A DNA stretch of 64,000 nt from Acarospora socialis (taxonomy: Eukaryota > Ascomycota > Lecanoromycetes > Acarosporales > Acarosporaceae): positions 1,054,001-1,118,000 of the forward strand of contig JAMYGW020000011.1 of the NCBI GenBank assembly GCA_025617375.2. Reading direction: 5' to 3'. Each line of letters starts with the position of its first letter. Within the stretch, counting starts at the first letter, position 1. The position numbers and the translations under genes are program-made. Positions 1 through 51,711 of this stretch are shown in pieces. The notes beneath the pieces were generated by a model. It was not told the DNA's origin. It did no database searches and worked only from the letters and a program-made list of their open reading frames with translations.

Positions 1-3000
1 ATGTGTTTTCAAAAGATTTTGAATCAAACAAATTGTTGTGTTACACAAAAGACTGACTGTCTTGCTGCTGAACTTGATAGTGATAATGATGAAACTGAGA
101 ATGAAAATTCTCAAATAATGTTATAACTTGTTAACTTGATGTTGTCATTCTTCTGAGCTAATATTAACTTTTTTTTTCAAAATATTGAAGTGTTTTCACA
201 CAGTTCTTAAGATTCTCTCTAAGTTTTCAGATACTTTTTGAGATATCATAATTTTTTTATTTTATGAGATAATGAGTTTTCTCACTAATCATTCTCTTTT
301 TTAAAATATTCTTGACTTCATATTCTTTTTTGAGTTTGACAGACATTTTAATAATTTGAAGTAATATGAACTGATTGCAGTGCTGTAACATGAATGCATA
401 AAATATTGAGTGTATTTTCATTTTCTTGAGTAAGTCTAGCTCATAACTTAACTTCTTGATGTTTCATATAATCTTGAATGATTCAATGTTCTTGTTTTCT
501 AGCTTCTTGCTTCTTTTCTTGATTCATATGTTGTTTGTTTTTAAATACACTTTCTTTTCTTTCTTGAATAATTTTATCTCTATTGTTTATTTTATCTGCT
601 ATTCAATCTGTCTTGTCAGATCTTGATGCAGTTTCTTTATCTGTGCAATATTCAAAATTGTTTTCTGACTTTGTGATTCATGTTCTCTGAAATCTCATCA
701 TATCTTTGAATTATAGTTATAATTCACATAAAAAGATGTTTCTTCTGTAATTTCATTTCTTATGTTGTTGTACATAAACTGTGCTGTTGATAACAGTTGT
801 ACTCAGTTATTTTGACTTTTGTTAACATAGTGTCTCAAGTACATTTTTACTGTCTGATTCATTCATTTGCTTTGTTTATTCATCTGTGAGTGATATGTCA
901 TCAACATCTTGTGTTTTATTTTAAGTTCTGCTGTGAGCATTCTTCAGAACTTGCTTGTAAACAGTTTGTCTCTGTTAATGATAAACTTCTTTAATAGTTC
1001 ATGATTGTTAATTAATTTTTGCAGTATGATGTATGTCAATACTGATGCTGTCACAGTTTCTTTGAATGAAATGAATATTGTGTACTTGATCAATTTATTC
1101 ACTATTGTCAATATACTGTTGAATTTCACTTCTCATGTTGAGTTCTTTGATGATGATAGCTTTGTAATGAAATTTATAATAACTGACTTTCATGATGCAT
1201 CTGATGCATCTAGTTGTGTTATTTTGTTGTATTATTGATCTTAATTAATCTTGTTTCTTTGACATGAATCACACACAGTAATCATTTTGATGATTTAATT
1301 TTTAAAATCACTAATGTTGCATTTTCTTCACACTAGATTCTCAGTGTGCTTGATTTCTAGATGTTCACTGACTTTGTTATAGTGACACATCTTGATGAGT
1401 TTTTTGTTCATCAAGAAAGCTTGCTTTATCTTGTATATCACTGTTAAGCTCTTCATAAAAACTTCTTTGTCATCTTCACTTAAAATTCTAACATATATTG
1501 TCTGTATATCTTCATGATCAGATCATTTGTTCAAGATATTCACTTTATTATTCTCATTACTTTTCTTGTAATGAATCTGAAATTCATAATCTGCTAACTG
1601 CTCTGCTTAATGAATCTGTTGTTGATTGAGTTGCTTTGTTGTTGCAAAGTTTCTCAAATTCTTGTGATCTGTATAGATCTGAATTGACTTATTTGTTTTT
1701 GTAAGATAAAATTTTCAATTTTGTAGTGTCTTCACTATCACAAGAAGTTTCTTATCATGAATCTCATATCTTTTTTTGAGTTCTGATAACTTTCTAGATC
1801 AATACACTATGAATCTCTGTTGCTCATTCTCAATCTAATATAAACATGCTTTTACTGCAAAATCTGAAGCATCAGTTTTCAGTGTCTTCTTACATGCTGA
1901 ATTGAGTATTCTTAGATGTGCTGTTTCACTAAAACTTTTCTTTAACATGTGAAATGCATTCTTCTGCTCTTGATTTTAATGCTATTTTTTACTTTTGTGC
2001 ATCAAATGCATCAATGATTTCACAATTCTTACATAATTTGATACAAACTTCTGATAGTAGTTTGTTAACTTTAGAAAGACTTGTACTTTCTTGATTCATT
2101 TCAGTGTTGATCAATTTCTGACTGCTTTTATCTTCTTTAAATTCTTCTCAATCTGTTCAGATTGAATTACATAATTTAAAAACTTAATTTTCTTGATTTT
2201 GAATCTGCTTTTTGACTTTTTCACATACAAAACTTTCTTGTTGAGCTTTGTCAATATCTTGTGCATATGCTCTCAATGCTTTTCAAGATCTTTCAAATAT
2301 ATTAGAATATTGTTAAGATATGTGATCACAAAATTATTGAGATATTTTCTCAACATGTCATTGATCAATCTCTGAAAGATGACTGATGCATTTTTTAACT
2401 CAAATGACATGATGATATATTTGTAGTGTTCATATCTTGTTTAAAATGCTGTCTTTCATTCTTCATCTTCTTTCATTCTGACTTGATAATAAGTGTTTTT
2501 AAGATCTAAGTTTGTGAATTACTTAGTTTTGTTTAATTAATCTTGCAACTCTTCTATCAGCAGTAAAGAATAACTATCTTGATGAGTTATCTTATTGAGT
2601 TGTCTATAATCAATACATAGTCATTTTTTGTCATTCTTGTTTGACACAAACAGAATTGAATATTCTGTCAGTGACTTTGATGATTTTATGAATTCTTTCT
2701 TTAAATTCTTGTCAAAATAAGTTCTAACTTTCTTGAGTTGATTCTCACTCATTGAGTATAAAGACATTCACTTGAGTTGTCTTTCATTCAATAGTGATAT
2801 TTCATGATTTCATGACTTATACTCTAATAAACTCATTTCTGACTGTTCAGAAATCTTGTATGTGTCTTCAATTGTACATATTTCTTTCATAACTCAATCA
2901 ATCTTCAGATTTCTTCTGCACAATCAGGGCATTTTTAGCACTGCATTGTATTCAATTAATTTCATAACATCAAACATTATCTCTTGTGAATTTTCAAGAA

Positions 3001-5477
3001 TTGAGACTTTCACACAGATTTTCTCATCAATTCTTTTGATGACTCTGTTCATCATTTGTATGTTGAATGAACAGTGCACTCACTGTGTCTCTAATTTTAA
3101 CATGCTGACTGTTTTCTAACTCATGATGTTTTTATCTGCTCTGAAATTCATCAATGTGTTGATTCAATGTTTATCAATTATAATCTTAATTCATATCTGA
3201 TGATCATTATCTTGTTTTTGAGACATCATTATCTTCTTGTTCTCTAGTCTTGTCAAGAAAACTTTTTATTTTTTGATTTACTCAGTTGCTCAGCTTATCT
3301 TCAAAGTTTTTGAAATTATCTTGATTTTCTTTTGATCATGAAATTTACATACTTTAAACTGTACTGCTCAATATATCTTTCTGAGTGTAATCAGAGTTCA
3401 TACTGATTGTACTTTATCTGTAACTGATTCTCAAAGACTTTTACTCTTTGCAGAAATTTAAGTGATATATATTCTTCACTGAAGATTCATTTGTCTTCAT
3501 TCTGCATGATATATTCTTCAGATAAGTATATTTCAATCTTGTAACTTTTAATTTTTCACACAAGAGATTCTGATATCAGTTCTCTCATAACTGTTTGTAT
3601 ATTTCTCATCAGATCATCAAATTCTTTGTATATCTTTGCTTTTTGATTTTAAGTTTTTTGCTTTTTCTTTCATACTGTATTGCAGTCTGATGCTGTTTCT
3701 TTCTGAGCATTTAGATCTTTTTTGATCTTTACTCAATATTTTTTTAAAAGTTCTGTCTCAACATTGTCTGAACTTTCTTCTGTGAGTGTATTGTTATTGA
3801 AAAATATTCAAGATTCATCAATTTGAGATTTATGATCATCAGTCTCTTCAATATCATCTTTAAGAGCATTATCTTCTTTCTCAGCATCAAGAATTCTTCT
3901 CTTGATAAGAATAACTAATTTTTTTTTGTAAATTGATTAACTCATTGTGTTATATCTATTCTTCACATCTTTGTATAATCTCTGAGAATATTATCTGACT
4001 TCATCTTTTGTGCTCATGTGTACTCTGCACATGTCATTGTAACAGACTGTTTAACTGAGAGTGTCATGTACTATGCATGTATTCTTCTTGATTAACACTG
4101 CAATATTTTTTCTTTTTATTCAAGATCTATTACATTCTCAAACAAGATGTCTGAGTTTTCTGCAGTTGTAATACATTTATATTTTGTTTTGTGATGTTAT
4201 CTAAGACTTAGTGAATCACTCTGACTGACATTCATGCTTTATTTATCTAGTCTTTTATGACTTTTGATGACACTTCTTGATTGCATTGAGATTCATAAAA
4301 TTTGTTCTTCTATATCTTATTGATAAAATATATTGCTTTATTCACAGTCAGAAGCTTTCTTCTTGATCTTTTATTATAGATGACATTTGATATTTTTTTT
4401 GTTTCATTTATTGTTCTCACTGACAACTATCAATATTAATATTCAAATTAATCATTCTCTGAAGATTGTCTGATTGTTCTGCTTGAGTTATTTTGTCTTT
4501 GATGAACTTTCTCAACTCACAATAGTACTGATAAATAAGTACTTCATTATTTCATCTGATAAGTGCTGCTAACTGTTGAAACTCTGTGACATATACTGCT
4601 GTTGATTCACTCTGTTGCAAGATATAAACTTGTTTTTTAACTGTTCTTTCTTCATCAATCACTCTGAAGACTTTTCTTAATTCTTTCTTGAATCATACAT
4701 AGTTATTGAACATAGACTTTGTGTCTGCATTGCATTCTTTGTATTTCTTTTCTAAAAACTCATGCAGTTTGAGATCAATTCAATCAAAAGCTGCATTCAC
4801 AAGATAGATCATTGCAAACAGTGTCTTTTCTTAATTGATTTGAAACTTCAGCTGATTAAATTCAATATACAGATTAAGTTTAGTTACAAAGACTTGTAAC
4901 TTCTCTCTCTCTTCATCAAAGATATCTGATATCTGTATTTTTAATGTGCTTGAGAATAGTTGTATAGCTTGAGTCAACATCATTACTGATTGTGTTATCA
5001 TTCTATTCAGAGTAAATAGTAGAGATGAGTTTGTTTGAACTTGTTTCAAGAACAAAGTTAAGACATTCTTTTGTGTGTCAGACATCATACTCATTATATT
5101 ATAAGAGTATTCAAAATGTAACATTCTAATCTAAGATTTCTCAGGTATGTAGAGCTAAGAGTTTGTGCTTATTGATATAATAACTGATCTGAAATGATTC
5201 TGGTCTTTAACTTTTAGATAGTTATTTAAGTTGAATATGATTGTTTTCATAAGAAAAATGATTCTACTATATAGAATGTGCTTGACACTTCTGCATTGAG
5301 CATTCTTGGTGTTTTGATGTCTTGATGTTGAGAAATCAAGCTTTCAGCTTGTCTGCTCACTGTTGAGTTATTATGTTGTTATATGATTACTGCTCAGCAG
5401 TTTTTCTTGTACACACTTTGAGTGAATTTCTGATTCTGAACTCACAAGTTTCTTTCTTTTCAGATATGATTGTAACA
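1..5477 (-). mobile_element. Ty3/Gypsy chromovirus fossil, copy A (cut by window edge)
   Basis: Minus-strand LTR retroelement whose right end is an LTR at 5117-5477; its left end lies outside the window. Read right to left the recognisable parts follow Gypsy order: gag from about 5100, a CCHC zinc knuckle near 4110-4160, a protease-like stretch near 3000-3300, reverse transcriptase about 2100-2800, RNase H about 1560-1960, integrase about 700-1450 and a chromodomain near 180-345. It is the same family as the copies at 35462-41676 and 44556-50714, and position 1 matches about 45270 of the latter. The copy is broken throughout and very AT-rich, with CpG, CpC and GpG almost absent. It seems to have inserted into the LINE piece that begins at 5478. 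Age cannot be clocked because of the mutation process. Confidence 0.85.
5117..5477 (-). repeat. 5' LTR of Gypsy copy A
   Basis: 361 bp, with tgtaaca at one end and tgtaaca at the other, which is TGTTACA read on the element strand. The half nearest the gag matches the LTRs at 50363-50714 and 35462-35811, including the segment where the U3 TATA-like motif lies. The outer part is more diverged and resembles the LTR at 10918-11270. LINE sequence follows directly at 5478. Confidence 0.75.
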
Positions 5478-8003
5478 TGTTGCTGCAGAATTTGAATTTT
5501 TTTTTCTTATTTTAATCAAAATTCAAAGTTTATTTCTGTCTGCTGTCTCACTGATTACATTGTAAAAGTGTATGATTTTTGTTTTTGCAATTGAATTTTT
5601 CTTAATTTTGTCTTTCATCTTGACTAACTCTCATACTTCTTTCATACAAATTATTTTTATATATTATCTTGTTCTTCTTTCTTATCTAACTATCTCATCA
5701 ATTACATCTGTTCATCAAACTTCTTTTTAATTTAAGAATTTGTGTATAGAAACTGAGTTACTGACTAATATCTCAATAAAGTTGACAAGATACTCTGAGT
5801 ATTGTACAATCTCAATTCTTGTTGATAAATCTTAATTTGTCTGAAGATGTTGAGTTTCAGTCAGTATGATTTCTTGATTCATCTTCTTTCAGCATTTCAT
5901 TTTGCTTTGAGTGATTCATACAATCTCAAAATTAAAAATTACTGAGATTGAAAGATGATCTGAGTCATGATTTATGTTCTTTTTAATAAAGCATTCTTTC
6001 AACTGATCTACAAAAATCTAACTAACAAAGATCAGATTTATTGTGCTGAAGATTTTTTAAGTATATTAAGTAGAGATTTCTGATGTAATCAATAGAGAAA
6101 GATTGTATGATGTGATCATTTCAGTAAGAACTTCTTTCATGTTGTGAATGTTTGAGTTGAAAAGTTCACTTTACAGTGAATAATGTAAATTGAAGTTCTT
6201 TAAAACTATGTGTTTGTTCTTTCTTTGTATAAATGTTGATAGAAGAAAAATAGAGAAAAAATAGTCAGTATTTGTGTAACTTTCTGAAAACTACAAATAA
6301 ATGTTGTATATTTAGAGAGTTCTGTTGTTCATATGAAGACAGAGTATGCATAAGTTAAAAATGAGAAAGTTCACTGATCAAATACTAAAATCAAGTCTTT
6401 TGTTAATCAGAAAGCAACTTCATTGTAAAATTAAATCATGCTGTAAAATGAAAAAAGTGATCTTGAAACTATAAAATATTGATGTAAAAAAATTTTATCA
6501 AAGTTTCTGAATTATCAGAATATTGTATAATCAGATTGTTTTGTTAGTTAAAAGAAGAATAATCATTTTGTTTTTGTTTTTCTGCACATTATATTGCAGA
6601 ATAAACAGCTTATTCATCAGTTTGTGATTGAGAAAGTATTTTTGTAATTATGAAATTTATATGATTAGTTGTCAGTGTCTTAAATAATCTTTCTCTTTTT
6701 CTTTTCAAAACTGAAAGAAAGTCATCATCACTGACTGTTGTGACTGAACTTAAGAACTGAAAAGTAAAACTGATATCTTTATGAGAGAATGTTTTGAATA
6801 AAATGTTCAGTGAAATTCTGAGAAAAAGATCTTTAATTGAAATTTAAAAATGTGTAAGTTATACAAAATAAACTTATCTTACTTTCTTCACTCTTTCTAA
6901 ACAATGTCTGACTCATACAGAATGATTTTTGTTCTTCTTTTCACATAATGTGTATTAGATCTTCAGAGAATTCTTTTTTTTAATGTAATTCTCAATTATG
7001 TGATTCAATGCTGCACAGAAGTCATATTGTATGATTTTCTTGCAGTACTTAACTGTGTGATTCTTGTACTGCTGACATTTAAAGCATTAAGTGACAATGC
7101 AGTTTTCAGAAAAAATTTCACAATCATAAAGTTCAGAGTTAAGAAGAAGATCATTTTGCAGAAGATAGTTTGTCTGTTCAGTCTTTGTTATCTTGATGTA
7201 AAGTGATTCAAAAAGATGTTTTTGTATAATTGTCTTCTTGAATCATTCTACTCATAGAATCTTTACTTGATTTTTAAATTGTGAATTTTGCATGTAAAGA
7301 ATCTTAATTGTCTTGACTTGATTCTTGTCATTTATGAAGATGATTTAAATTTTATAAGTCATAATAATGTACTCTTGCTGCTTGATTCTGACATTGAGTT
7401 TAAAGATTTGTACAATTTTCTCTCTTTTTTTTCACATCATCTTGTTCTTTTTCTTTTCAAAGATGAAAATCACATCATTACTGAACAGACATCTTGCAGT
7501 CATCATTATTTTTGAAGTTTCTATTTCTTTTTGTATCTCTTGTATAATGTTTTGTTCTGTTCTTGTTCTTTATATTTTTGTTTCTGTTTCTGATTTAATC
7601 ATTATCTTTTAATATTTTTTCTGAAGTATTGATAGAACTTTTGTTTTAAGATTTTTGAAATTGACTGCTGCTGCTGAGTATGTTTGTGAGAATGTGAAAA
7701 CTTTGATGAGATCTCATACAATACTTGTAAAATTCTTAATTTGCTTCTTGATCTTCTGAAGATCAGTATTCAAAGTATTACTTTTTTCTTTTTGTATCAT
7801 GATTCTGATCATTTTTCAGATTTCTTTTATTTTAATTGAACAGTTACTAATTCATACAAAACAGTTTAGAGAGCTGATTGTCTCTGAGAGACTTTGAGAG
7901 TGATGAGAAAAACAGACTTTTTACTTAAATAAAATTTCATTGCAACACATTTCTTCTGATTCATCATCATCTTTTATTATTGTATGATTTTTCTTATGAA
8001 TTT
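5478..8003 (-). mobile_element. Tad/I-like LINE, copy 1 (ORF1 and endonuclease portion)
   Basis: Non-LTR retrotransposon fragment on the minus strand. From right to left it shows an ORF1-like region, a CCHC zinc-knuckle zone around 7100-6930 (CFKCQQ followed by further Cys/His spacing), then the apurinic-type endonuclease. The endonuclease starts near 6606 with a residue run like ILQYNVQK and ends near 5960 with an SDHLSI-type motif. It then runs into the linker before RT and is cut at 5477 by the LTR of Gypsy copy A, so no RT is present here. It aligns over its length to 14517-17043. Many in-frame stops make it non-functional. The right end at about 8003 coincides with the end of homology in copy 2, so it is probably the true 5' end. 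Confidence 0.75.
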
Positions 8004-10917
8004 GTATGATGCTTGAGTATTTGATGATTTTTGTGATTGAAATGTTGTATGTATTTATTCACATACTAATAGTATTGCTGTTCAATCAGAGACTTATATA
8101 TTATATCTTGAATCACATAGTTTAGATTTACACTTTAACATGTAACTCATCTATTAATGATAGTGAATAACTGTTTCAATGTATTATTTCATTAAGTTAA
8201 CAGTAGTCAACACAGAGTTGTTTTTTTCTGTTCTTCTTTGATACAAATAGAATTGAATATTCTGCTGATGACTTCAAAGATTTAATGAATTTTCTCTTCA
8301 GATTCTCATCAAAATAGTGTTATATTTTCTTGAGTTGATTCTCACTTATTGAGTATAGTGACATTTACTTAGACTGCTTTCTGTTCAATAACAATATCTT
8401 ATGATTTTATGACTTGTGTTTTGACAAATACATCTTTAATTGTTCAAAGATCTTATATGTGTACTCAATTACATATAATTTCTTGTTGACTCAGTCAATC
8501 TTAAAATTTCATTCACATAATCAAAACATCTCTAGTATAGCATCATCTTTGAGATTTATAATTTCAAATGTTATCTTTTGTGAATCTTCAAGTATCATGA
8601 CTTTTATGTGTGCTCTTCAGTTCATTATGATATAACTTCTGTTAATCATTTTTATTTTTGATCATCTTAATACTGATCTTGTTATTAGCTCAAGTCTCTT
8701 CATTGCTTCATGAAAAATAAAGTTGTCTGTTACTCTTAAATTCATTATGACTTGAAGCTGTCTCTTTGACATAACTTGAACATTAATTCATATTCAATGA
8801 TCATCATCATCACATTGAGACACTAGTAGCTTCTTGTTCTTTAGTTTTGTCAAGAAAGCTTGCAGTTTTTTGACTTTTCTGCTTCTATTGATGCTCTTTT
8901 TTATAGATTCTTGAATCACTATAATTCTTGTTCAGCAAGCATTAATCTGTTATGTTCTCTGTTTTAATCTTCAATATATCATTTTTTGTGCAGTTCTAAG
9001 TCATATCTGTTGTATTTTTTCTGCAACTGATCTTTAAGTACTTTCACTTTGCATAGAAACTCTGACAGAATATAATCTTCTTGAAAAATTCACAGTTCTC
9101 TGTTTCTGATTTTTAGTTCTTGAGATAAACTTATATTAAGTTTAAATTTTTTTCTGACTTTTAATCAAGATTTCAGCAGTAGTGATCTGTAATGATTATT
9201 TGTCATTGTACATGTGTTTTTTATGAGATCATCTGATAACTATTTGATTCTCTTGACTCTATCTCACTTTAACTTCAAAATATTGATTTTATCTTGTAGA
9301 TTCTTCTGTTCTTGCTGAAGTGTTTTTTTTCTTAACACTTTACATTAATTATTGAGATGTTTGTATTGATTCTTGAGTTTCATGTTAACTTCTCAATTGT
9401 CAACATCTTTCTGATTCACATTTGAATCTAAATGCATTCAGATATCATTTTCACTCTGAGTTCTGCAAGTATCAGTTTTTTCAATTTTATCTTGATTAAT
9501 ATTTTCTTCAGTTTTAAGAGTATTTCTTTTCTTAATAAAAGTAGTTAGTTCTCTCATCTGAATTGATCAATCTGTCATGTTGTATCTGTCTTTTTTGTCT
9601 GTTTTAGACTTCTTTAAATAATAATCAACTTTATCTTTACTACTTATATGTATTCAGCATATGTCATCATAACAAGCTGTTTAGTTAAGATAATTGTGCA
9701 CTATCTTTTTAGTTGCAATTGCAGCTTCTTTTCTCTCTTATTAAGATTTATTGCAATTGTAGCATCTTTATGTCTCATGATTACTTGAGAACTTTCTTTT
9801 TGAGAATTTTCTTTTTTTTCACAGTATTTCTTTCAGTTTCTGTATCAAAGATCAATCTTGTGTTATTACATTAAGATTCATGAAATTCAAGTATTGTTAT
9901 CTTATATTCTTCATGTCAGCTCATCTTGATCATTTTTAAAATCAGTAGTTTTTCTTTTTCATCTGTCTTTTTTATTGACAGTTATTTATCATGATTATCT
10001 TATTAATCAATTTTTGCAGATCATCTGATCTGTTACTTTATGCAATTTCATTCTTGATAAATTTTTTCAAGTCTCAATAGTAAGTTGATGTTAACTGATT
10101 TGAATTTCATTGCATAAGCACTGCAATTCATTGAAACTCTACTGCATACTTTGCTGCAAATTTTTCTTGCTGTAATATGTGAATTTTTCATTTCATCACA
10201 CATTTCTCATCTACTATCTCAAAAATTCTCTTTAATTCTTTTTTGAACTGCATTCAGTTCTCAATGTAAGAAATATTGCATTCTCAATTCTTTTTGCTCT
10301 TAATCATGAACTTATTGAGTTATAATTCAATTTAATCAAATGCTGTATTCTTCAAATAAAATGTTGTAAACAGAATTCTGTCAATATTGTTCTGAAACTT
10401 TTTCTGATTGAAGTTAACATATAAATTTAGTTGAATGTTTGAAATATAACTTATAATAGCTATGACTAAAGTGTGATGCTCACTTTTGACAGATTATAAA
10501 CTCAGATTAGTACAGTGAAAAAATCTTGCAGAAATGTGATTAATTTCATATGTCTGTTGATTACTCAAAATGTGAAGAGTAAGTTTAAAGATTGTAAATT
10601 TAACACATGTTGCACACACAAATTCTGTTTGCACAGAGCTGAATCTCAGCAATATAAGTGCATTGTTAATGATTGTGAGTTAGAGAAAGTGTTAGAAATA
10701 TAACTCATGATAGCTGTGACTAAAGTGTGATGTTCACTTTTGACATTGAACAAAAAACTGTCTCAAATTTCATTAATCTTTGATGAAGTTCTCTGAGATC
10801 TTGATCTTAAGTACTTTATAATTAATATTGACAATCTTAATCAGTTCAGTGATTTGTGACTTACTGTCTAAAATTGAATCTTTGATGAACATCTTTATAT
10901 TGTAAGAGTGTTCAAAG
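8004..10917 (-). mobile_element. Diverged Gypsy remnant, copy B (internal region)
   Basis: Minus-strand remains of a second, more diverged Gypsy subfamily. A reverse-transcriptase N-terminal stretch is visible near 8180-8350 and resembles the equivalent part of copy A. Protease- and gag-like sequence follows to about 10900, next to the LTR at 10918-11270. The piece is incomplete at its left end, where LINE copy 1 begins. The first about 120 bases (8004-8120) are not assigned to either element. It is strongly AT-rich and broken. A short duplicated segment inside it is listed separately (10438-10744). Confidence 0.6.
10438..10744. repeat. 55 bp direct repeat flanking a 200 bp segment inside copy B
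   Basis: Two near-identical stretches, about 10438-10491 and 10690-10744, share the core gtgtgatg-tcacttttgaca and flank about 200 bp. The enclosed plus-strand frame (10515-10703) is open and rich in Cys and His, but I recognise no domain. The arrangement could be a small insertion with a long duplication, or a local tandem duplication within the old gag region. Confidence 0.45.
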
Positions 10918-11270
10918 TGTTACATTCTAGTACAATATGACTCATGTTAGAACTAGAGTTTGTGCTTATTGATATAAAGATTGCAAAGATTTAGTGATTT
11001 GATAAACAGTAGCTTATTGCATAATGAATGAGTTGAATACAATCATTTTCATAAAAAAAAACAATTTTACTATATAGAAACTTGCTTGTTGATCTTGCTG
11101 TTGAGCACTGTCAAGCTGACTTGCTTTGCAGCTTGTTAAGCTGCTTTGTTATGTTTATTTATTGAGCATAAAAGATGTCATATGACACATATTATAACAG
11201 TCACTCTGTCAAATTTTTTTACAGAAATACATTCTATTCTGTGTATACTCAAAAAGATATGATTGTAATA
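10918..11270 (-). repeat. LTR of Gypsy copy B
   Basis: 353 bp bounded by TGTTACA at 10918 and tgtaata at 11270. The internal landmarks follow the LTR family of copies A, C and D (gagtttgtgcttattgatat; tcattttcataaaa; ctatatag), with more divergence. LINE sequence starts immediately to the right, so the element probably landed in a LINE. Confidence 0.7.
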
Positions 11271-12229
11271 AAGTTCTTTTATATCTCTCAGAAAGAAAGT
11301 TTAGCTTTTAGTTTACATTGATAAGATTGATTATTATTTGAGTAAATTTGAATTTCATTGTTTTAAGAAAACAATATGAAATGCTATTTAATTCTGATAC
11401 ATTATAAAATACTTTTGTATAAAGTACTGCAGAAATCTTTTCAGCATTTGTTGAGTTGAAGATGAATATAGATTGAATAAAGATTTTCAAATTAATAAAT
11501 TTGTCATTTTATAAGAATCAGAGCACTTCAGCATTCAAAATATTCTGAATATTAACTATTATCTTGAAATAAAATTTCTTTCTGAAAATTTCAACTTTTT
11601 TTTTTAGAGTGTGTACTTCACTGTGTGTTGTACAAATTGAGAAGACTGTTGTTATAAAGTTTCTACTTTTTTTTCTCATTTTAATTAAGATTCAAAGTCT
11701 ATTTCTCTCTGTTATTTCACTGATTATATTTTAGAAATATATAATTTTTGTTTTTGCAATTAAATCTTTTTTAATTGTCTTTCATTTTAATTAACTTTCA
11801 TGCTTCTTTTGTACAAATTATTCTTATTTATTGTTTTGTTCTTCTTTCTTGTCTGACTGTCTCATCAATTATGTTTGTTTATTAAACTTCTTTTTGATTC
11901 AAAAACTTGTACATAGAAACTGAGTTGCTGATTAATGTCTCAATGAAGTTAATAAAATACTTTATGTATCATACAATCTCAATTCTTGTTGACAAATCTT
12001 AATCTGTCTGAAGATATTGAGTTTCAGTCAGTATAATCTTTTAATTCATCTTTTTTCAGCATTTCATCTTGCTTTGAGTGATTTGTATAATCTTAAGATT
12101 GAAAATCACTGAGATTGAAAAATGATTCAAATTATAATTTATGTTCTCTCTAATAAAGCATTCTTTCAGTTGATCTGCAAAAGTCTGATTGACAAAGATT
12201 AAATTTATTGTGCTGAAGATTTTTTAAAT
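11271..12229 (-). mobile_element. LINE fragment, copy 3
   Basis: Minus-strand LINE piece that aligns to about 14130-15090 of copy 2. It covers the end of the endonuclease, the linker and the start of RT; an open stretch at 11308-11490 matches the one at 14180-14362 and reads like the Tad-type segment ahead of RT motif 1 (SISYCFLK). It is bounded on the left by the LTR of copy B and on the right by the (TTA)n tail of LINE copy 2, so both neighbours appear to have landed in or beside it. It is non-functional. Confidence 0.65.
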
Positions 12230-12255
12230 ATATTATTATTATTATTATTATTATT
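12230..12255. repeat. (TTA)n microsatellite, 3' tail of LINE copy 2
   Basis: A run of about eight TTA units directly abuts the LINE homology. Its place at the 3' end of the minus-strand LINE makes it the element's tail and not a free-standing microsatellite. Confidence 0.75.
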
Positions 12256-15200
12256 CTTACACTGAACTAGCTATGCTAAGCAGAACTTCTCTTCAGTTCA
12301 TATTTTAGAAAATTTTACAAGAATGAAAATCTAAGTTCATAATGTTCTTTGTATGAAAGTAAATTAGATGTAAAAGTTGAGTGAATAAGATATAAGATGA
12401 ATGATTTCACTTTTAGTCATAAAGAACACTGATCATAAATCAAAACTGACTTAGATAACTGTTACACACAATTCATTTGACAGTTTCATAAATCAGCTCT
12501 TTGATAAACAGAAGTTAAAAATTCTTTTTTTCTTTCTTTCTGAATAATAAGCAGCTATGAATTCTTTTTAATTTTACATATCAACAATATATATTGTGAA
12601 GTTTCTGCTTTCTTATTACACAAATAGTTGATAGAGAAAATTTTGAGAATCTTGATCTTGTAAAGAAAGTAATTGTAATTAACACATCTTATATAAAACT
12701 GAATTAATTCTGAACTTTCAGTCTTTCTCAGTCTCTAATGAAGCTGAAGAACTTTTTTGAAGAATAATTTAATAATTTAATTTCATTTTTTGATTTTTTC
12801 TTTCTGATTAGTGTCATATTATCTTTGAATTTATGTATTTTGTACAGTTTTCTTTAAGTTAATTTTCTTCATTAATTTCACTGAGAAGTAAGTAACTGTC
12901 ACACTTATCATAAATTAATAAACTTTCTGCTTAATTCTTTTTCTGATGAGATTGTAAATTTTGTTTTTTATTTCTGCAAAAATTATGCTCTTTATATGAG
13001 TGATATAGATTTGCACTCTATCATCTAAATATAGATCAAAAAAAATATGTAGATTTTGATTTTCAGAGTGCTGATTGAAGTAACTCAATAAATGTTGACA
13101 ATTATATGAAAACATTTGAACTGAGTAATTTTAATTGCACTGACAATCTTCTTTATGTGATGATTCTTGATAAATATATGTCAGATATATGCTTCATAAG
13201 TCATTGTTAATTAAATGACTATTGTGTAGATCTGTCAAAATTGTATAAAAGAAGTTTCTCAAATGAATACTGCTATTCTGATTAGCACTTCTGTCTGTTT
13301 GATCATCTTGTTTTGAAGAATCTTGATATGAGTAATTCATTTGAGTTTAGAGTCAAATTAAATTTCTAAGATTCTTACACTTAAAAAAGAAATCAATTCA
13401 TTGTTTTGAATTCATACAACTGTCTATATGTTGAATTTGATTCTGATTTTGAAGAAGTGAATTATTTTATATTTGTAAGAAACAAATCTAACTTCATGTT
13501 GTATAACTTAACTTTTATATTCTCTATGAATTCTTTTCAATTTAATGCAGTTAATCTCAGTGAACAGTCTGTACAAAAGAATGTTGATATTATTAACAAA
13601 GTTAATTATCAAAATTTTTTCTTTTAATCAATTACATCACTTCAGCAGATCTGCATTGTAGAATAAAAAGAAAATAAATGATAAAAAAAAGTTTTATGAA
13701 ACTTCAGTCTTCACAGAGAAGCAAGTTGTTTTCTATTCTTATATAATCAATAAGATGATTTAATTGTGAAGAAAGTTCTGAACTCATCATACAACTCAAT
13801 AAAACATTTATTTCTTTTGCAAGTTGTTCAGAAGTCAAGTTAAATTCATTATATCAAAAATTTTTACTATGTTCATTGACAGAAGAATAACAACATACTT
13901 TTTACTGTCTCAAATTATACAAATCTGACTTATCAACAAATTCAGTGCAGTTTCTGTAAATTATTCTGTTCTATATCTTATCTGATCTTTAGAAAGAAAA
14001 TTGTTGTCTTTTATAATTTATTTAATTTATATAATCAACAAAGTCTTCATAATCTTTCTCATTATGTTCAGCAGAACAATTAATCTTTATAATTTAACTT
14101 CTTTGTAGAATTGCTTTTCTGACTTGTGTAACACTATTATACAAGCTTTTTTGTATTTTTCAGAAAGAAAGTTTAGTTTTTATTTTGTATTGATGAGATT
14201 GACTATTGTTGAAACAAGTTTGAGTTTCATTGCTTTGAGAAAGCAGTATGAAATGCTGTCTAATTTTAAAATATTGTGAAATACTTTTATACAAAGAATT
14301 GCAGAAATCTTCTCAACATTACTTAAGTTAAAGATAAATATAAATTGAATAAAGATTTTCAAATCAATAAATCTGTTCTTCTGTGAAGATCAAAATACTT
14401 TGATATTTAAAATATTTTGAAAATTAATTATCATCTTGAAATAAAATTTTCTTCTGAAAATCTCAGCTTTTTTATTTAGAGTGTGAATTTCTTTATATGT
14501 TGTACAAATTAAAAAAATCATTACTGCAGAATTTAAATCTTCTTTTTTCATTTTAATCAAAATTCAAAGTTTATTTTTCTCTGTTATCTCATTGATCACA
14601 TTGTAAAAGTGTATAATTTTTGTTTTTACAATCAGATTTCTTTTAATTTTATCTTTCATTTTAATTAACTTTCATACTTCTTTCATACAAATTATTCTTG
14701 CTTATTATTTTGTTCTTCTTTTTTATCTGACTATCTCATCAATTGTATTTGTTCATTAAATTTCTTTTTAATTCAAGATCTTGTGCATAGAAACTGAGTT
14801 GCTGATTAATGTCTTAATGAAATTGACAAAATACTCTGTGTATTATATAATTTCAGTTTTTGTTGATAGATCTTAATTTGTTTAAAGATGTTGAGTTTTA
14901 ATTAGTATAATCTCTTGATTCATCTTCTTTCAGTATTTTATCTTGTTTTAAATGATTTATATAATCTTAAGATTGAAAATCACTGAGATTGAAAGATAAT
15001 CTGAATCATAATTCATGTTCTTTTTAATAAAGTATTCTTTCAGCTGATCTGCAAACATTCAACTGACAAAAATTAAATCTATTATGCTGAAAATTTTCTG
15101 AATATATTAAGTAAAGATTTCTGATGTATTCAATAAAGAAAGATTGTATGATGTGACTGTCTTAACAAGAACTTCTTTTATGTTGTGAATACTTAAGTTG

Positions 15201-38800: not shown

Positions 38801-41326
38801 AATCTGAACAGATTAAAAAGAATTCAAAGAAGACAGAAGCAGTCAGAGACTGATTAACATCAAAAAGAATCAGAAAAGTACAGGTCTTTCTAGAATTGAT
38901 GAACTATTATTGAAAGTTTGTATCAAACTATGCAAGAATTGCAGAATCACTGACACATTTGACACACAAAAGCAAAAAATAGCATTGAGATCAAGAACAG
39001 AAGAATGCATTTCACATATTAAAGAAAAGTCTTAGTGAAATGACACATCTGAGAATACTCAATTCAACATGTGAGAAGACACTGAAAACTGATGCTTCAG
39101 ATTTCATAGTAAACACATGTTTATATCAGATCAAAGAGAAACAACAGAGACTCATAGCATATCAATTTAGAAAACTATCAGAATTCAAGAAAAGATATGA
39201 GATTCATGACAAGAAACTTCTTGTGATAGTGAAAGCACTGCAAAACTGAAGACTTTATTTCACAAAGACAAGCAAGTCAATTCAGATCTACACAGATCAC
39301 AAGAATCTGAGAAACTTTGCAACAACAAAGTAACTCAATCAATGACAGATTTGTTGAGCAGAGCAGTTGACAGATTATGAATTTCAAATTCATTACAAGA
39401 AAAGTAATGAGAATAACAAAGCAGATGTCTTAAGCAGATAATCTGATCATGAAGATGTACAGACAGTACATGTCAGAATTTTAAGAAAAGACAACAGCAG
39501 AATTCTCATGAAGAACTTAGCAGCAATGTACAAGATAGAGCAAGCTTTCTTGACAGACAAAGAACTCATTAAAATGTGTCACTACAGCAGAACTGAAGAA
39601 CATCTAGAAGTTAAATGCACAAAAGATCTAGTGTGAAGAAGACACAATGTTAGTGATTTTAGAAATTGAATCATCAAGATAATTGCTGTGTATGACTCAT
39701 GCTGAAGAAATAAGATTAGTCAAGATAGACAATACAACAAAGTAACACAACTAGACACATCAGATGCATCATGAAAGTCAGTTATCATGAACTTCATTAC
39801 AAAACTATCATCATCAAAGAACTCAGCATGAAGAGTGAAATTCAACAGTATATTGATTATAGTGAACAGATTAATCAAGTACACAATGTTCATTTCATTC
39901 AAAGAGAATGTGACAGCACCTACATTGACATATATGATACTAAGAGAATTGATTAGCAATCACAGACTATCAAAAGAATTTATCACTGACAGAGACAAGC
40001 TGTTCACAAGCAAGTTTTGAAAAACACTTACAGCAGAACTTGAGATAAAACACAAGATGTCAACAGCATATCACTCACAAACAGATGAACAAAGCAAACA
40101 AATGAATCAGACAGTAGAAACATACTTGAGACACTATGTCAATAAAAGTCAAGACAACTGAATATGACTGTTGCTGATGGCACAGTTTGTGTACAACAAT
40201 GCAAGAAATGAAATCATGAAAGAAATGTCTTTCTATGTGAACTATGACTATAATTCAAAGATATGACAAGATCTCAAAGAACACAGATCACAGAGTCAAA
40301 AAGCAATTCTGAATATCACATAGATGAAGAAACTGCATCAAGATCTGACAGAATGAATCAGACAGCAGATGAGATAAACAACAGAGACAAAATCATTCAA
40401 AGAAGAAGAAAGAGTATATTTAAGAATGAACAACATACAAACAAAGAAAAGAAGCAAGAAGCTAGAGAACAAGAGCATAGAATCATTCAAGATCATATGA
40501 AATATCAAAGGGTTAAGCTATGAACTAGACTTACTCAAGAAAATGAGAATACACTTGATATTTCATGCATTCATGCTACAGCACTGCAACCAGTTCATAT
40601 CACTTCAAATCAATGAAATGTCTGTCAAACTCAATGAAGAATATGAAGTCAAGAACATTTTAGAAAAGAGAATGATTAGTGAGAAAGCTCACTATCTCAT
40701 AAAATGAAAAGATTACAATATCTCAGAAAGTATCTGAGAACTCAGAAAGAATCTCAAGAACTGTGTGAAAACACTTCAATGTTTTGAGAAAGAAAGTTGA
40801 TATTAGTTCAGAAGAATGACAACATTGAGTCAACAAGTTGTGATATTGTTTGAGAATCTTCATTCTCAGTTTCATCATTATCACTATCAAGTTCAGCAGC
40901 AAGACAGTTGACCTTCTGCAAAGCACAGTGGTTCATCTGGTTCAGTGTTTTCTGAAGACATACAACTTTTGAAGAAAGTGCAGCAAGCTCAGTGTGCTTG
41001 ACTGTCAATTTGCTGTTTGCTTTACTTATTTTCTTTTGAAGTGAAAGACAAGTTCTATTGAGAGACTTTCACAATACACTGACACATGGGTGACTGCAGC
41101 AAGTACACTTATTGCATTTTGATCAAGATTTCATTACAAAACAGTTGATGTCACAATGAGCACAATAGTCACAAGAGAATGAAACAGGCACACCACTGAT
41201 CTGAATTTTCTTTGTAATTCTTAGGTGATTGAAATTTTTAGAAAGCATTGTTGCTGACAATGAATGATGTGAATATTCTCACTTATATAGATTCTAGAGA
41301 ACTAGTGCTGAAGAAGAAAAGAATAG

Positions 41327-41676
41327 TGTTATGATCAAGTCAGAATGAACTTAAAGTGAACTGATGTGTACATGAGAGAAACATACATTTGAAGAATGTT
41401 AGACAGCAGTCATGTGACATCTTAACATGCTTGATGGTAAGCTTAACAAGCAAGCTTGATGAATTGCATGAGTGAGCTGTCTCAATGAACTCAACAGCAA
41501 GATCAGCAAGCAAGCTCACTATATAGTAGAATCATTTTTCTTATAAAAACAATCATGTTTAACTTAAGTAATCATCTAAGAGTTAAAGTTCAGAATCATT
41601 TCAGACCAGCTGTTATATCAACAAGCACAAACTCTTAGTTCTACATACTCAAGAAATCTCAGGTTAGAACATTACA
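41327..41676 (+). repeat. 3' LTR of copy C
   Basis: 350 bp, the same length as the 5' LTR, TGTTATG to ATTACA, followed by the target duplication aatag. Confidence 0.9.
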
Positions 41677-42011
41677 AATAGTAAGAATAAGAAGAACAAA
41701 AATGACAATACTGATATGAAAGACAAGTTTTTAAGAAACAAGATACATTCTTAGAAAGTTTGATCTCTGAAAACATAAAAAATTACTTAGAAGAAGAGAG
41801 TGTGAAGAAGTTAAACTTAAGTAATGTTGATGAAGAGAAAGAAAGAAGTAATTACTCAACAAAAAGAAAAGTGTACACTGCAATTAAAGATGCAGTATGA
41901 TCACTGAATGAAGTTAGTTAATAAAGAATTTGCTGAAATGTTCATCTGAGTGAAAATATTGAAGTGTTATTAAGCAGAGTATAATATTCAAAGAGAACAA
42001 AGAATCAATAT

Positions 42012-44907: not shown

Positions 44908-47900
44908 TCATTCTTTTCTTCTCAGACATTAGTTCTTTAGAGTCTATATAAGTGAAAATATTCACATCATTCATCATCAACAACAATGCTTTCTAAAAAT
45001 TCAAATCATCTAAGAATTACAAAGAAAATTCAGATCAGTAATGTGTCTGTTTTATTTTTTTGTGATTATTGTGTCTGTCACAGCATCAACTGTTTTGTAA
45101 TGAAATTCTGATCAAAATGCAATAAATGTACTCATTACAGTCATTTATATGTCAATATATCATGAAAATCTCTCAATAGAACTCATCTTTTGCTTCAAAA
45201 GAAAATAAGTAAAGCAAACAACAAATTGACAGTCAAACACACTGAACTTACTGCACTTTTCTTAAAAATTATATGTTTTCAGAAAATTCTGAATCAAACA
45301 GACTGCTGTGTCTCACAGAAGATTGACTGTCTTGCTGTTAAACTTAATAATGATAATGATGAAACTGAGAATGAAGATTCTCAAACAATATTATAACTTA
45401 TTAATTCAATATTGTCATTCTTCTGAACTAATATCAACTTCTTTTTTTAAAATGTTGAAGTGTTCTTGTGCAGTTCTTGAGATTTTCTTTGAGTTTTCAG
45501 ATATTTTCTGAGATGTCATAATCTTTTTATTTTATGAGATAGTGAACTTTCTCATTAATCATTCTTCTCTTTAAAATGTTCTTGACTTTGTATTCTTCTT
45601 TGAGTTTGACAGATATTTTAATGATTTAAAGTAATATGAACTGATTGCAATGCTGTAGCATAAATGCATGAAATATTGAGTGTATTCTCATTTTCTTGAA
45701 TAAATCTAGCTCATAGCTTAATTTCTTGATGTTTTATATGATCTTAAATGATTCAATGCTTTTGTTCTTTAACTTCTTGCTTCTCTCTTTAATTCTTATA
45801 TTGTTCATTCTTAAGTATATTTTTTCTTCTTTCTTAAATGATTTTGTTTTTGTTGTTTGTTTCATCTGCTGTTTGATTTATCTTGTTAGATCTTGATGCA
45901 GTTTCTTCATCTAAACAATATTCAAAATTACTTTTTAACTTCATGATCTGTGTTCTCTGAGATCTCATCATATCTCTGAGTTATAATTATAATTCACATA
46001 GAAAGATGTTTCTTCTGTGATCTTGTTTCTTGTGTTGTTGTACACAAACTGTGTTATTAACAATAGTCATACTCAGTTGTTCTGACTCTTATTGACATAA
46101 TGTTTCAAATATGTTTTTACTGTCTGATTCATTCATTTGTTCTGCTCATTTATCTGTGAATAATATGTTGTTGACATCTTGTGTTTTATTTCAAATTCTG
46201 CTGTGAGTGTTTCTCAAAACTTGCTTATAAATAGCTTGTCTCTGTCAGTAATAAACTCTTTTAATAGCTCATGATTGTTAATTGATTTTTGCAGTATGAT
46301 ATATGTCAATACTGATGCTGTTGTGATTTCTTTGAATGAAATGAACATTGTGTACTTGATCAATCTATTCACTATAATCAATATACTGTCAAATTTCATT
46401 CTTCATGCTGAATTCTTGAATAGTGATAACTTCATAATGAAGTTCATGATAACTGACTTTCATGATGCATTTGATGCATCAAATCACATTATTTTGTCAT
46501 ATTGTCTATTTTAATTGATCTTATTTCTTTAGCATGAGTTATACACAGTGATCATCTTAATGATTCAATTCTGAAAATTGCTAATGTTGCATTTTCTTTG
46601 CACTAAATTCTCAGTGTACTTAATTTCTAAATGTTCACTGACTCTACTGTAGTGACATATCTTAATGAGTTTTTTATCTGTCAAGAAAGCTTACTTCATT
46701 TTATACATCACTGCTAAGTTCTTCATGAGAACTTCTTTGTTGTTTTTGCTTAAAATTTTGATGTGTATCATCTGTACATCTTCATGATTGAGCTGTCTAC
46801 TTAAGATATTCACTTCATTATTTTCATTATTCTTCTTGTAATAAATCTGAAATTCATAGTCTGTCAACTGCTCTGCTCAATGAATCTGTCATTGATTGAG
46901 TTGTTATGTCATTGTGAAGTTTCTCAGATTCTTATGATTTATATAGATCTGAATTGACTTGTTTATTTTTACAAGATAAAATCTTCAATTTTGCAGTGCT
47001 TTCACTATTACAAGAAGTTTCTTATCATGAATCTCATATCTTTTCTTGAGTTCTGATAATTTTCTAAATTGATATGTTATGAATTTCTGTTATTCATTCT
47101 TGATCTAATACAAACATGCTTTCATTGTGAAATCTGAAGCATCAGTTTTCAGTGTTTTCTCATATACTGAGTTGAGTATTCTCAGATGTGCTATTTCACT
47201 AAGACTTTTCTTTAATGTGTAAAACACATTCTCTTGTTCTTTATCTCAACATTATTCTTTGCTTTTGTGTGTCAAATGCATCAGTGATTTCACAATTCTT
47301 GCATAGTTTGATACAAACTTTCAATAATAGTTCATTAGTTCTAGAAAGACTTGCACTTTCTTGATTCATTTTAATGTTGATCAGTTTCTGACTGCTTTTA
47401 TTTTCTTTAAATTTTTCTTGATTTGTTCAGATCAAATCACATAGTTTAGAAACTTAACTTTTTTGATTTCAAATCTGTTTTTTGACTTTTTCACATACAA
47501 GACTTTCTCATTAAGCTTTGTCAACATCTTGTGCACATGTTCTTGATGCTTCTCAAGATCTTCTGAATATATTAGAATATCATTGAGATATGTGATTACA
47601 AAATCATTGAGATATTCTCTCAACATATTGTTGATCAATCTCTGAAAAATGACTGATGTGTTTTTCAATTCAAATAACATAATAATATACTTATAGTGTC
47701 TGTATCTTGTTCAGAATGTCATTTTTCATTTTTTATCTTCTTTCATTCTGACTTGATAGTAGATGTTCTTAAGATTTAAGCTCATGAATCACTTAATTTT
47801 GTCTAATTGATCTTGCAACTTTTCTATTAGTGATAAAAGATAATTATCTTGATGAGTTATCTCATTGAGTTGTCTGTAATCAACACATAGTTATTTCTTG

Positions 47901-50362
47901 TCATTCTTCTTTGACACAAACAGAATTAAATATTCTGCTGATGATTTTGATGATTTTATGAATTCTTTTTTAAGATTTTTGTCAAGATAAGTTCTAACTT
48001 TCTTGAGTTGATTTTTACTCATTGAGTATAATGACATTCACTTAAATTGCTTTTCATTCAATAACAGTATCTTGTAATTTCATGACTTATATTCTGATAA
48101 GCTCATTTCTGATTGTTTGAGAATCTTGTATGTGTTTTTGATTGCACATATTTCTTTTGTAACTCAATCAATTTTCAGATTTCTTTAGCACAATCAGAAC
48201 ATCTTTAGCACTGTGTTGTATTCAATTGATTTCATAACATCAAACATTATCTCTTGTGAGTTTTCAAGAATTAAGACTTTCACACAGATTTTCTCATCAA
48301 TTCTTTCAATGACTTCATTTGTCATTCATATGTTGAACAAACAGTGCACTTACTGTGTCTCTAATCTCAACATATTGACTATTTTTCAGTTTATAATATT
48401 ACTGTCTGCTTCAAAATCTATTAGTGTGTTGATTTGATGTCTGTTGATTGTAATCTTGATTTATATTCAATGATTATTGTCTTGTCTTTGAGACATCACT
48501 AACTTTTTGTTCTCTAGTCTTGTCAAGAAAACTTTTTGTTTTTTGACTCACTTAATTGTTCAGTTTGTCTTTAAAGTTCTTGAAATCATCTTGATTTTCT
48601 TTCAACTATAAGATTTGCATACTTTAAACTGTATTGCTCAATATATCTTTCTGAATGTAATCAGAATTTATATTAATCATACTTTATCTGTAACTGATTC
48701 TTAATGACTCTTACTCTTTGCAGAAATTCAGATAATATATATTCTTCACTGAAAATTCATCTGTCTTCATTCTGCATGATATATTCTTCAGATAAGTATA
48801 TTTTAATTTTGTGACTTTTAGTTTTTCACACAAGAAATTCTGATATCAGTTCTCTCATAACTGTTTGTATGTTTCTCATTAAATTATTGAATTCTTTGTA
48901 TATCTCTACTTTCTAATTTCACATTGTATTGTGTTCTGATGTCATTTCTCTCTGATTATTTAGATTTTTTTTGATCTTTGCTCAGTACTTTCTCAAGAAC
49001 TCTGTCTCAGCATCATTTAAACTTTCTTCTGCAAGTGTATTGTTATTGAAAAATATTTAAAATTCATCAATCTGAGATTCATGATCATCAATTTCTTCAA
49101 TGTTATCTTTAAGAACATTGTCTTCTTTCTCAACATCAAGAACTCTTTTCTTGATAAGAATAGTTAATTTTTTTTTGTAGATTAATTGACTCATCACATC
49201 ATATCTGTTTCTCACATCTTTGTGTAATCTTTAAGAATATTATTTGACTTCATTTTTTGTGTTCATGTGTACTCTGCACATGTCATCATAGTAGACTGTT
49301 TAATTGAGAGTGTCATACACTATGCATGTATTCTTCTTAACTGTCACTGCAACATTTTTTCTTTTTATCTGAGATCTGTTGCATTCTCAGACAAGATGTT
49401 TAGATTTCTTATAGTTGTAATACATTTACATCTTATTTTGCAGTGTTATCTAAGACTTAGTGAATCACTTTGACTAACATTCATGCTTCATTTATCTAGT
49501 CTTTTATGACTTCTGACAACACTTCTTAATCATATTGAGATTCATAAAGTCTGTTTCTCTATATTCTATTAATAAAATATATCACTTCATTCACAGTCAG
49601 AAGCTTTCTTCTTGATCTTTTATCATAAATGACATTCAATATTTTTTTTGTTTCATCTATTGTTCTCACTGACAACTATTGATATTAATACTTAGATTGA
49701 TTATTTTCTGAAGATTGTCTGATTATTTTGCTTGAGCTATTTTGTCTTTGATGAACTTTCTTAATTCACAATAATACTGATAAATAAGTGCTTTGTTATT
49801 TCATTTAATAAGTGTCATTAACTGCTGAAACTCTGTGACATATACTGTTGCTGATTCACTCTGTTGCAAGATATAAACTTATCTTTCTGCTGTTCTTTCT
49901 TTGTCAATTATTTTGAAGACTTTCTTTAATTCTTTCTTAAACTGTGCATAGTCATTGAACATAAACTCAGTGTCTGCATTACACTCTTTGTATTTCTTTT
50001 CTAGAAACTCATGCAGCTTAAAATTAACTCAATTGAAAGCTGCATTCACAAGATAGATTGTTGCAAACAGTATCTTCTCTTAATTGATTTAAAACTTTGA
50101 TTGATTGAATCTGATATATAGATCAAACTTTATCACAAAGACTCACAATTTTTCTCTTTCTTCATCAAAGATATTTGATATCTGTATCTTTGATGCACTC
50201 ACAGATAGTTGTATTATTAAGATTAACATCACTAATTGTGTTGTCATTCTATCTGAAGTAAATAATAGAGATAAGTTTGTCTGAACTTATCTTAAGAACA
50301 AAGTTGAGATGTTTTTCTGTGTGCTAAACATCATACTTGTTATATCATAAGAATGTTCAAAG

Positions 50363-50714
50363 TGTAACATTCTAATTTGAGATTTCTCAGATATGTAAAA
50401 CTAAGAATTTGTGCTTATTAATATAACAGCTGATCTGAAATAGTTCTGATCTTTAACTCTTAGATTGTTATTTAAGTTGAATATGATTCTTTTCATAAGA
50501 AAAATGACTGTAACTATATACTGAGTCTACTTGCTGATCTTGCTGCTGAGCTTGTTGAGACAGCTTGTTAATGCAATCTGTTGAGCTTGCTTGTCAAGTT
50601 TGTCATCAAGCATATCAAGATATCATGTGACTGCTGTCTAGATATTCTCTGAATATACATTCTTTACATGTATGCATCAGTCTGTCTCAAGTCTGTTCTG
50701 GCTTGGTTGTAACA
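50363..50714 (-). repeat. 5' LTR of copy D
   Basis: 352 bp, tgtaaca to tgtaaca on the plus strand, next to the gag end of the element. It contains the ctatatact TATA-like segment and the agcttg-rich variable tract. Confidence 0.88.
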
Positions 50715-50719: not shown

Positions 50720-51711
50720 TACACATTTAATTATTGAAATCTATTATATAAGAAATACTGTCACATTATGAACTTGCAAGACAAGAATGAAAAATCAATG
50801 ATAACTGCTCAGAATAAATGCTGTTTTTTAGACTCAATATTAGCTCAAGAATTATACTGCAATAATTTAAATTTTTTCAATTTGCATAAACAGCTCTGTC
50901 AATGCACTTCAAAGACAAATAAGAATGTACATGATGAATCTACTGAAATATATGTGTTGCTGATGATGAAACTGAAAGAATGTGTTATTGAGAACATGAA
51001 CTGTCACAAATTGATCAAATCTGTCTTGACAGATCATTTTGCACAAAATACAAACAAGATCAAAAAGAAACAGACATCAAAGCAGCACTCAGAATTGAAG
51101 CAAGCAGCATTAAGAATCTTTGAACAAGAAACACAAGTTGACAAGATGAAGATGATGATCATAAAGTTTAAGATCAACAATATTATCAAAGAAAAGAAAG
51201 AATTGCAGAACAAAAACAAAGAATTATGTCAACAACTCAACAATCTCAAGATCAACTACATCAGTCTTTTTACACAATATAACATTCTTCAAGATCAATA
51301 TGACAATCTTTGACAAGAACACTCATTTTTCTGTCACACACAAGATTATCAGTTTGACAAGACAATGAATTTGAACTTTCTTGCAAGTGTCAAAGACAAC
51401 AAGAGAAATCATGAAGTCAGCATCTTGTTCTTTCTCAGTCACTATACTGTCACTGAATTCTAAGGTGTTTGATTATGGAAAGGGACTTGTTGTTGTTGTT
51501 GATGAAGTTATGCATTATGACTTTGATTTTTCATTATAAGTGCTTGATTTTGATTGCTTTACAAGAATATTGATATTCTTGTGGATTTGCTCTATGGTGA
51601 GGAAGCACATTATGACTTATGACATTATTGCTTTGAAAAGTGTCAATTTTGTGACTGTTATTTGTTTTCTGAAGAGTATTTATGGAACAAATTCATCAGA
51701 AGGGGGTGAGT
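50720..51711 (+). other. Outer element: extra 3' region, second part, and polypurine tract
   Basis: Contains the longest open stretch of the AT-rich blocks, 181 codons at 50768-51313. It is Lys/Gln/Asn-rich with a clear coiled-coil-like heptad pattern in its second half (KEKKELQNKNKELCQQLNNL) and scattered Cys. It matches no family I know. It lies between the nested copy D and the 3' LTR, so it belongs to the outer element. From about 51460 the sequence regains GG dinucleotides and ends in a polypurine tract directly before the LTR. Confidence 0.5.

Follow-up and report, generated by a model that had tools for sequence, protein, structure and literature searches.

The sequence contexts surveyed for repeat-induced point mutation (RIP) in fungi are CpA, CpT and CpG, as set out in PMC4352252, and a 2025 screen of 1,239 fungal species presents RIP-like defences as sharing a CpA preference (PMC12543289). 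Here we describe a 64,000-nt stretch of the lichen fungus Acarospora socialis, called the window throughout (bases 1,054,001-1,118,000 of contig C11, JAMYGW020000011.1, in a genome of 31.1 Mb and 38 contigs), in which retroelement copies have lost cytosine before both C and G. Our data make it likely that long repeats in this genome are hypermutated by a RIP-like defence that changes C to T where the C precedes a G:C pair (CpC or CpG, together CpS), on both strands and probably by way of RID.

Like Neurospora-type RIP, the pattern combines directed C-to-T change on both repeat strands with sharp AT-rich blocks and homologues of RID and DIM-2, whereas the target is not CpA, which was changed in 34 of 2626 cases against 184 of 819 for CpC in 13 copies of a retroelement family analysed below. 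Conversion of CpG to TG or CA is shared with the CpG-type RIP-like mutation of Microbotryum, rusts and Tuber, which Amselem 2015 linked to Masc2-type enzymes (PMC4352252); unlike there, CpC is hit in A. socialis as hard as CpG, and a RID-type gene is present. CpT-biased RIP is described in Botrytis, Sclerotinia and Magnaporthe, whose RIDs bear a special motif (PMC4352252). It resembles the present case in showing that RID lineages can vary in target, and differs in that CpT ranks lowest of the four contexts in A. socialis (11/1830). Sharpton in 2009 and Zemach in 2010 are said to have found CpG depletion with a gain of CA/TG in repeats of Uncinocarpus and Coccidioides, and CA/TG likewise rise in A. 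socialis. Uncinocarpus reesii is also listed with DIM-2, RID and DNMT5 (PMC7862722), all three types of which occur here.

In Rhizoctonia solani AG8, where hypermutation occurs between nuclei and the authors stress CpG, changes are reported at one CpC per 214 bp, one CpG per 370, one CpA per 422 and one CpT per 491, not normalised to available sites (PMC4014442). The C-to-T direction is the same and CpC is the densest raw class, but the changes are heterozygous single-nucleotide polymorphisms in genes and repeats alike, with no complete loss. CpC is reported as one of several dinucleotides depleted in S. nodorum repeats, where CpA dominates (PMC2621366). Among lichen fungi, Endocarpon is described as passing the usual CpA indices (PMC3897900) and Cladonia rangiformis as having a GC peak near 16% (PMC12542154), so that the CpS rule does not extend to lichens as a whole. 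In the literature we searched, which did not cover Clutterbuck 2011 or the primary Coccidioides and Uncinocarpus papers, we found CpC and CpG nowhere described as jointly the chief target of RIP. The claim to novelty is most at risk from the Onygenales, which lose CpG and gain CA/TG and whose rule could prove to be this one. We regard CpS mutation as a variant of RIP-like mutation that works like RIP and departs from its CpA definition, and for which homology dependence and premeiotic timing are presumed.

Dinucleotide signature in the window and across the genome

Observed/expected dinucleotide ratios were computed over both strands. The initial annotation had described long AT-rich runs in which CC, GG and CG are missing while CA, TG, CT and AG are common, and the counts bear this out in both AT-rich blocks. 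In the first 540 bases CC and CG are 0, with CA at 1.51 and CT at 1.22; over 1-21080 the values are CG 0, CC/GG 0.02 (n=13), CA/TG 1.46, CT/AG 1.25 and GC 1.01, and over 31668-51711 they are CG 0, CC/GG 0.11 (n=97), CA/TG 1.56 and CT/AG 1.26. CA/TG are thus nowhere near as low as CC, GG and CG in either block, and the gene parts do not share the CC/GG deficit (CG 0.96, CC 0.95 and CA 1.04 in 22432-31360; CG 0.95, CC 0.87 and CA 1.14 in 51986-58277). The signature had been assigned to the whole of 1-51711; it holds for both AT-rich blocks and not for the gene island between them (~22.2-31.5 kb). CG-free runs span 1-21130 and 31534-51829, and at 34-42 kb the loss of CpC is incomplete (1 to 21 CC/GG per kb) with CG still 0. 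The layout is as follows.

1-21080: AT-rich block of hypermutated repeats, CG 0, CC/GG 13
1-5273, plus strand: Gypsy-type copy A, aligned to copy B; reverse-transcriptase match at 2905-1807 on the minus strand
5308-20616: longest run without CG, CC or GG, 15,308 bp
5480-7992, plus strand: repeat copy D, 83% identity to copy E (14521-17042)
12001-13000, plus strand: piece of a dispersed repeat with ~40 further genome sites, mostly at 77-93% identity
14521-17042, plus strand: repeat copy E, aligned with copy D
21101-22200: border zone with short repeats resembling miniature inverted-repeat transposable elements (MITE-like), CG lowered and not absent
22432-31360: gene island used as control, dinucleotides normal
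31668-51711: second AT-rich block, CG 0, CC/GG 97
35443-41680, minus strand: Gypsy-type copy C, the least mutated of A, B and C (CC/GG 46, CG 0); reverse-transcriptase match at 37978-39163 on the plus strand
45271-50520, plus strand: Gypsy-type copy B, oriented as copy A; reverse-transcriptase match at 48175-47295 on the minus strand
51986-58277: gene part used as control, dinucleotides normal

The signature recurs outside the window. Fifteen 10-kb pieces at round coordinates on contigs C1-C8 yielded 300 segments of 500 bp, 98 of which lay below 36% GC; 96 of these lacked CG, and 92 lacked CG and held at most two CC/GG. The distribution is bimodal, with one segment at 36-42% GC and no CG-free segment among the 201 at or above 42%. 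It had also been predicted that routine RIP indices would miss the signature. This is true of RIPper, whose cut-offs (as given in PMC6714961) scored none of 192 AT-rich 1-kb segments as RIP in an overlapping series drawn from the window and 17 ten-kb stretches, and does not extend to RIPCAL, the formulas of which include a CpC index as presented in PMC2621366. The ratio (CC+GG+CG)/(CA+TG+CT+AG) ranged from 0 to 0.23 in the same 192 segments, compared with 0.33-1.61 in 253 segments of at least 42% GC.

Target context in two retroelement families

Direct rates came from a second retroelement family, presumably non-LTR (lacking long terminal repeats) judging by a motif, and otherwise assigned by its reverse-transcriptase family match. 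Twenty pieces were picked by hand among the 150 reverse-transcriptase matches listed; 13 were summed, six near-identical ones were excluded and one, L027, served as reference. The C-to-T rates were 0.225 at CpC, 0.218 at CpG (17/78), 0.013 at CpA and 0.006 at CpT, so that a following C or G made cytosine change 17 to 37 times as often as a following A or T did; counted as distinct sites hit, the figures are 54/63, 5/6, 15/202 and 10/141. Both strands are affected (0.21 and 0.23). The 3' neighbour decides the change and the 5' base is of little effect, with overall rates by 5' base of 0.038-0.054 and only ACC mildly spared (36/234, against ~0.25 for the other three 5' bases). A different cytosine-mutation specificity, as the initial annotation had suggested, is thereby supported. 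CpA and TpG had been described as kept, which is right in that they exceed expectation and wrong in that CA and CT also mutate, ~20x more slowly, and erode in old copies. That LINEs (long interspersed nuclear elements) in the window are affected like its other retroelements was not borne out, as the second family has no match there.

Three other readings fall away on these data: a process confined to CpG, since CpC is hit as much as CpG; CpA-type RIP, which the dinucleotides exclude (CpA 0.013 against CpC 0.225, and RIPper 0/192); and MIP (methylation induced premeiotically) of Ascobolus, a reversible methylation without mutation, since the C-to-T changes here are permanent.

The Gypsy-type sample, also picked by hand, comprised 15 stretches (two of which, L058 and L059, enter no copy count) and four more. 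Chromodomain matches ~2 kb from a reverse transcriptase on C14 agree with the name Gypsy, which the initial annotation had given from sequence only. Two reverse-transcriptase pieces, L045 (C14; GC 0.46, 42 CG) and L076 (C12; GC 0.30, CG 0), align over 1192 bp without a gap and differ by 205 transitions and 0 transversions, 195 of the transitions being C>T or G>A in L076. All 40 CpG are lost, 36 by a single hit (TG or CA) and four by a double hit (TA), and C-to-T change affects 106/135 CpC as against 21/175 CpA and 24/155 CpT; CpS sites are hit on both strands (87/115 and 63/100). Among the ten reverse differences, eight are CpG hit on opposite strands, one is CCG hit in the other order and one is unexplained; nine of ten thus being CpG or CCG sites, the CG-rich L045 has been touched by the same rule. 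Forward models in which C before C or G changes ~17 to 32x faster than before A or T come near seven summary counts of this pair, with CpG at 1 to 1.5 times CpC in the best-fitting ones; the slow rate falls on the grid boundary, with CpA and CpT tied. A CpA-type forward model does not fit these counts.

Fourteen older Gypsy-type copies, including A, B and C of the window, were scored at sites common to L045 and L046. CpG had become TG or CA in 394 of 448 cells and TA in 18; the nine most frequent outcomes, together accounting for 446 of the 448, do not include CG. CCA had become TCA in 223/360 cells and CTA in 9/360, CCT had become TCT in 200/319 and CTT in 16/319, and CCG had become CTG, TCA or TTG in 40, 35 and 18 of 124. 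ACC survives in 86/291 cells, compared with 28/265 for GCC and 37/305 for TCC. The earlier claim that among the Gypsy copies the changed base is most often a C before C or G stands through such less-mutated copies elsewhere in the genome, but not inside the window, where most Gypsy-type differences are CA/TA, CT/TT and CA/TG. CC and CG changes are few among the window copies because hardly any CC or CG is left to change; between copies C and A, CpC does show the highest rate (25/31, on small numbers).

Reading frames carry the same trace. The 150 reverse-transcriptase matches listed contain 418 TGA, 60 TAA and 21 TAG internal stops, and 23 are stop-free; TGA thus makes up 84% of in-frame stops, whereas its share is 46% and 55% when stop triplets in the two AT-rich blocks are counted regardless of frame. 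Such an excess would be expected from CGA->TGA and TGG->TGA, whereas CpA-type RIP would give TAA and TAG from CAA and CAG. One reverse-transcriptase copy at a contig end (L054, C8:1-1100) has four TAA stops but lacks TGA, is poorer in CA/TG than other copies, and possibly has a different mutation history.

Clusters of near-identical second-family copies with open reverse-transcriptase frames and strong CpG poverty lie at C1:2654838-2799451, C14:11456-85392 and C10:186970-264822 (L025-L031), and suggest that an element already adapted to the mutator has recently multiplied. An open frame of this family has 3 CG where 31 are expected from synonymous shuffles, and 31 CC/GG at codon positions 2-3 and 3-1 where 52 are expected, 9 of the 31 in Trp codons. 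To call the frame target-free would be too strong, as those 31 CC/GG remain outside codon positions 1-2.

Candidate enzymes and competing explanations

A genome search for the cytosine-5 methylase family, which the initial annotation had proposed, gave four matches that form three genes, of DIM-2, RID/Masc1 and DNMT5 types, with no third DNMT1-class gene beyond the DIM-2 and RID types among them. The DIM-2 homologue has 62% identity to Pleopsidium flavum DIM-2 and up to 85% to other proteins. For the DNMT5-type gene, both pieces match a chain of known structure, 7r76, whose deposited name is DNA repair protein Rad8 and which we take to be Cryptococcus DNMT5. In this gene (L007, C8:610001-619000) AGFSCVDFS replaces the usual PCQ, compared with AGTSCVDYS in 7r76. 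As DNMT5 is reported in most ascomycetes (PMC8091789), its presence here does not single it out. Suspicion falls more naturally on RID, with which Amselem 2015 connects the CpA and CpT signatures (PMC4352252) and which has an unusual residue after PCQ. The RID/Masc1-type gene has two open exons, with an intron placed by inference, and part of it shows 81-92% identity to a group of 11 including Pleopsidium, the next homologues reaching at most 67%. In a scan of 179 positions over the best 120 of 633 homologues, V731 (directly after the catalytic PCQ), R759 and L776 occur in every one of the 11 nearest but seldom in the remainder: 731 is V in 11/11 near relatives and F, P, T or Y in 105/109 others, while V731 occurs in 3/109 and L776 in 2/109 of the latter. 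A control scan of DIM-2 with a looser group of ten members returned 4/432 positions. These residues are candidate specificity determinants, offered as a lead only.

Under the proposed defence, CpG would become TG or CA, neither of which would then be a good target; CCA and CCT would see their 5' C become T, and the products of CCG and CCC would be set by the order of hits. Repeated rounds would end in DNA of ~22-30% GC almost without CG, CC and GG, and slower C-to-T loss in other contexts would follow in old copies. The absence of transversions beside 195 directed changes points to bursts rather than slow decay. An enzyme that accepts a G:C pair whichever way round it lies may be reading a feature of the minor groove, and the likeliest enzyme would be a RID/Masc1-type methyltransferase with altered reading of the 3' neighbour; homology dependence, premeiotic timing and the identity of the enzyme are what we infer. 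As to the initial proposal of a divergent methyltransferase or deaminase route, methyltransferase genes are present, and the reliance on the 3' base, with the 5' base of minor influence, favours a methyltransferase that reads CpN over an APOBEC-type enzyme, though not decisively.

We consider it unlikely that CpG and CpC are targeted by two separate processes whose effects coincide in the repeats. The copy at 34-42 kb, which has lost CpG and kept CpC, and the existence of three methyltransferase genes speak for such a division, against which stand the equal per-site rates in the second family (on six CpG sites only), the completeness of both CpC and CpG loss in most old copies, and the near-equal CpG and CpC rates of the best-fitting models. 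Also unlikely, in our judgement, is slow deamination of 5-methylcytosine at heterochromatic CpG and CpC through DIM-2 and DNMT5, without a homology-triggered mutator. Both types of gene exist, the 13 second-family copies form a graded series against L027, and strand-coherent runs were not found; however, 195 directed transitions with 0 transversions in 1192 bp need a C-to-T rate far above background, and to our knowledge CpC is no usual target of maintenance methylation. Slow deamination is offered for CpG alone in other fungi (PMC4352252), while Neurospora DIM-2 is reported to methylate all contexts (PMC7862722). An APOBEC-type cytidine deaminase acting on single-stranded DNA would also give C-to-T change on both strands, and a search of the genome for the cytidine-deaminase family PF00383 gave seven matches; APOBEC enzymes typically depend on the 5' base, and it is the 3' base that decides here, the 5' base leaving only ACC somewhat spared, which makes this explanation very improbable. 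Base-composition bias, assembly error or contamination can be dismissed with near certainty, as AT-rich and gene parts alternate along one 1.57-Mb contig, CG is 0 where base composition alone predicts hundreds, and alignments of mutated with little-mutated copies show neither gaps nor transversions.

Several observations weigh against the RIP-like reading itself. Neither the L045/L076 pair nor the genome sample contains strand-coherent runs of hits. CA->TA changes amount to 136/818 between copies A and B and 102/352 between copies D and E, and in the older Gypsy-type copies CA->TA reaches 166/1392 and CT->TT 275/1234, subfamily divergence included. L045 and L046 are CG-rich, yet even the best frame contains 3 stops in the former and 10 in the latter, so that they count as little-mutated rather than pristine; likewise, 18 sites (80 cells) in the second family run opposite to L027, mostly with C before T in the copies and four of them in 13/13 copies, so L027 carries changes of its own and is not ancestral everywhere. 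Copies 99-100% identical over 1.15 kb on C1, C8, C10 and C14 have open frames and are barely mutated, which could be owed to a recent burst, to asexual spread or to evasion. Finally, the MITE-like copy in the window lacks 10 of 28 CpG present in other copies, perhaps through leakage from the adjoining block.

That copy belongs to an inverted pair (21433-21569 and 21884-22020; 137 bp, 95% identity) of a short MITE-like repeat with copies scattered through the genome. Such repeats are not hypermutated, with 177 transitions and 155 transversions in the 11 of 14 fetched loci that aligned, at an identity of just 71-86%; either a length limit or the low identity would explain this. A 5.8S rRNA search of the genome gave two matches. 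Three further features of the window are an open frame of 181 amino acids without a Pfam match inside the hypermutated block (50768-51313, plus strand), an open frame in the gene island with GIGGAGN repeated three times (28833-29318, minus strand), and a Gti1/Pac2-family regulator gene cut by the window end (63189-63998, plus strand).

Implications for RIP and its enzymes

The prevailing view takes CpA as the target of RIP, and the RIPper indices are built on it; about one third of the sampled segments of A. socialis are hypermutated, yet no AT-rich segment passes them. The recoded index (CC+GG+CG)/(CA+TG+CT+AG) could uncover further hidden cases. Tentatively, and with rather less assurance than we attach to the mutation process itself, we suggest that in Acarospora-like lichens the 3' reading of a RID-type enzyme may have moved from A to any G:C pair, perhaps via the guanine minor-groove amino group, which would make CpS a fourth RIP class beside CpA, CpT and CpG, and that resident retroelements may have answered by shedding CpG in their open frames. 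One enzyme family with opposite 3' preferences would allow us to ask which RID residues choose the target.

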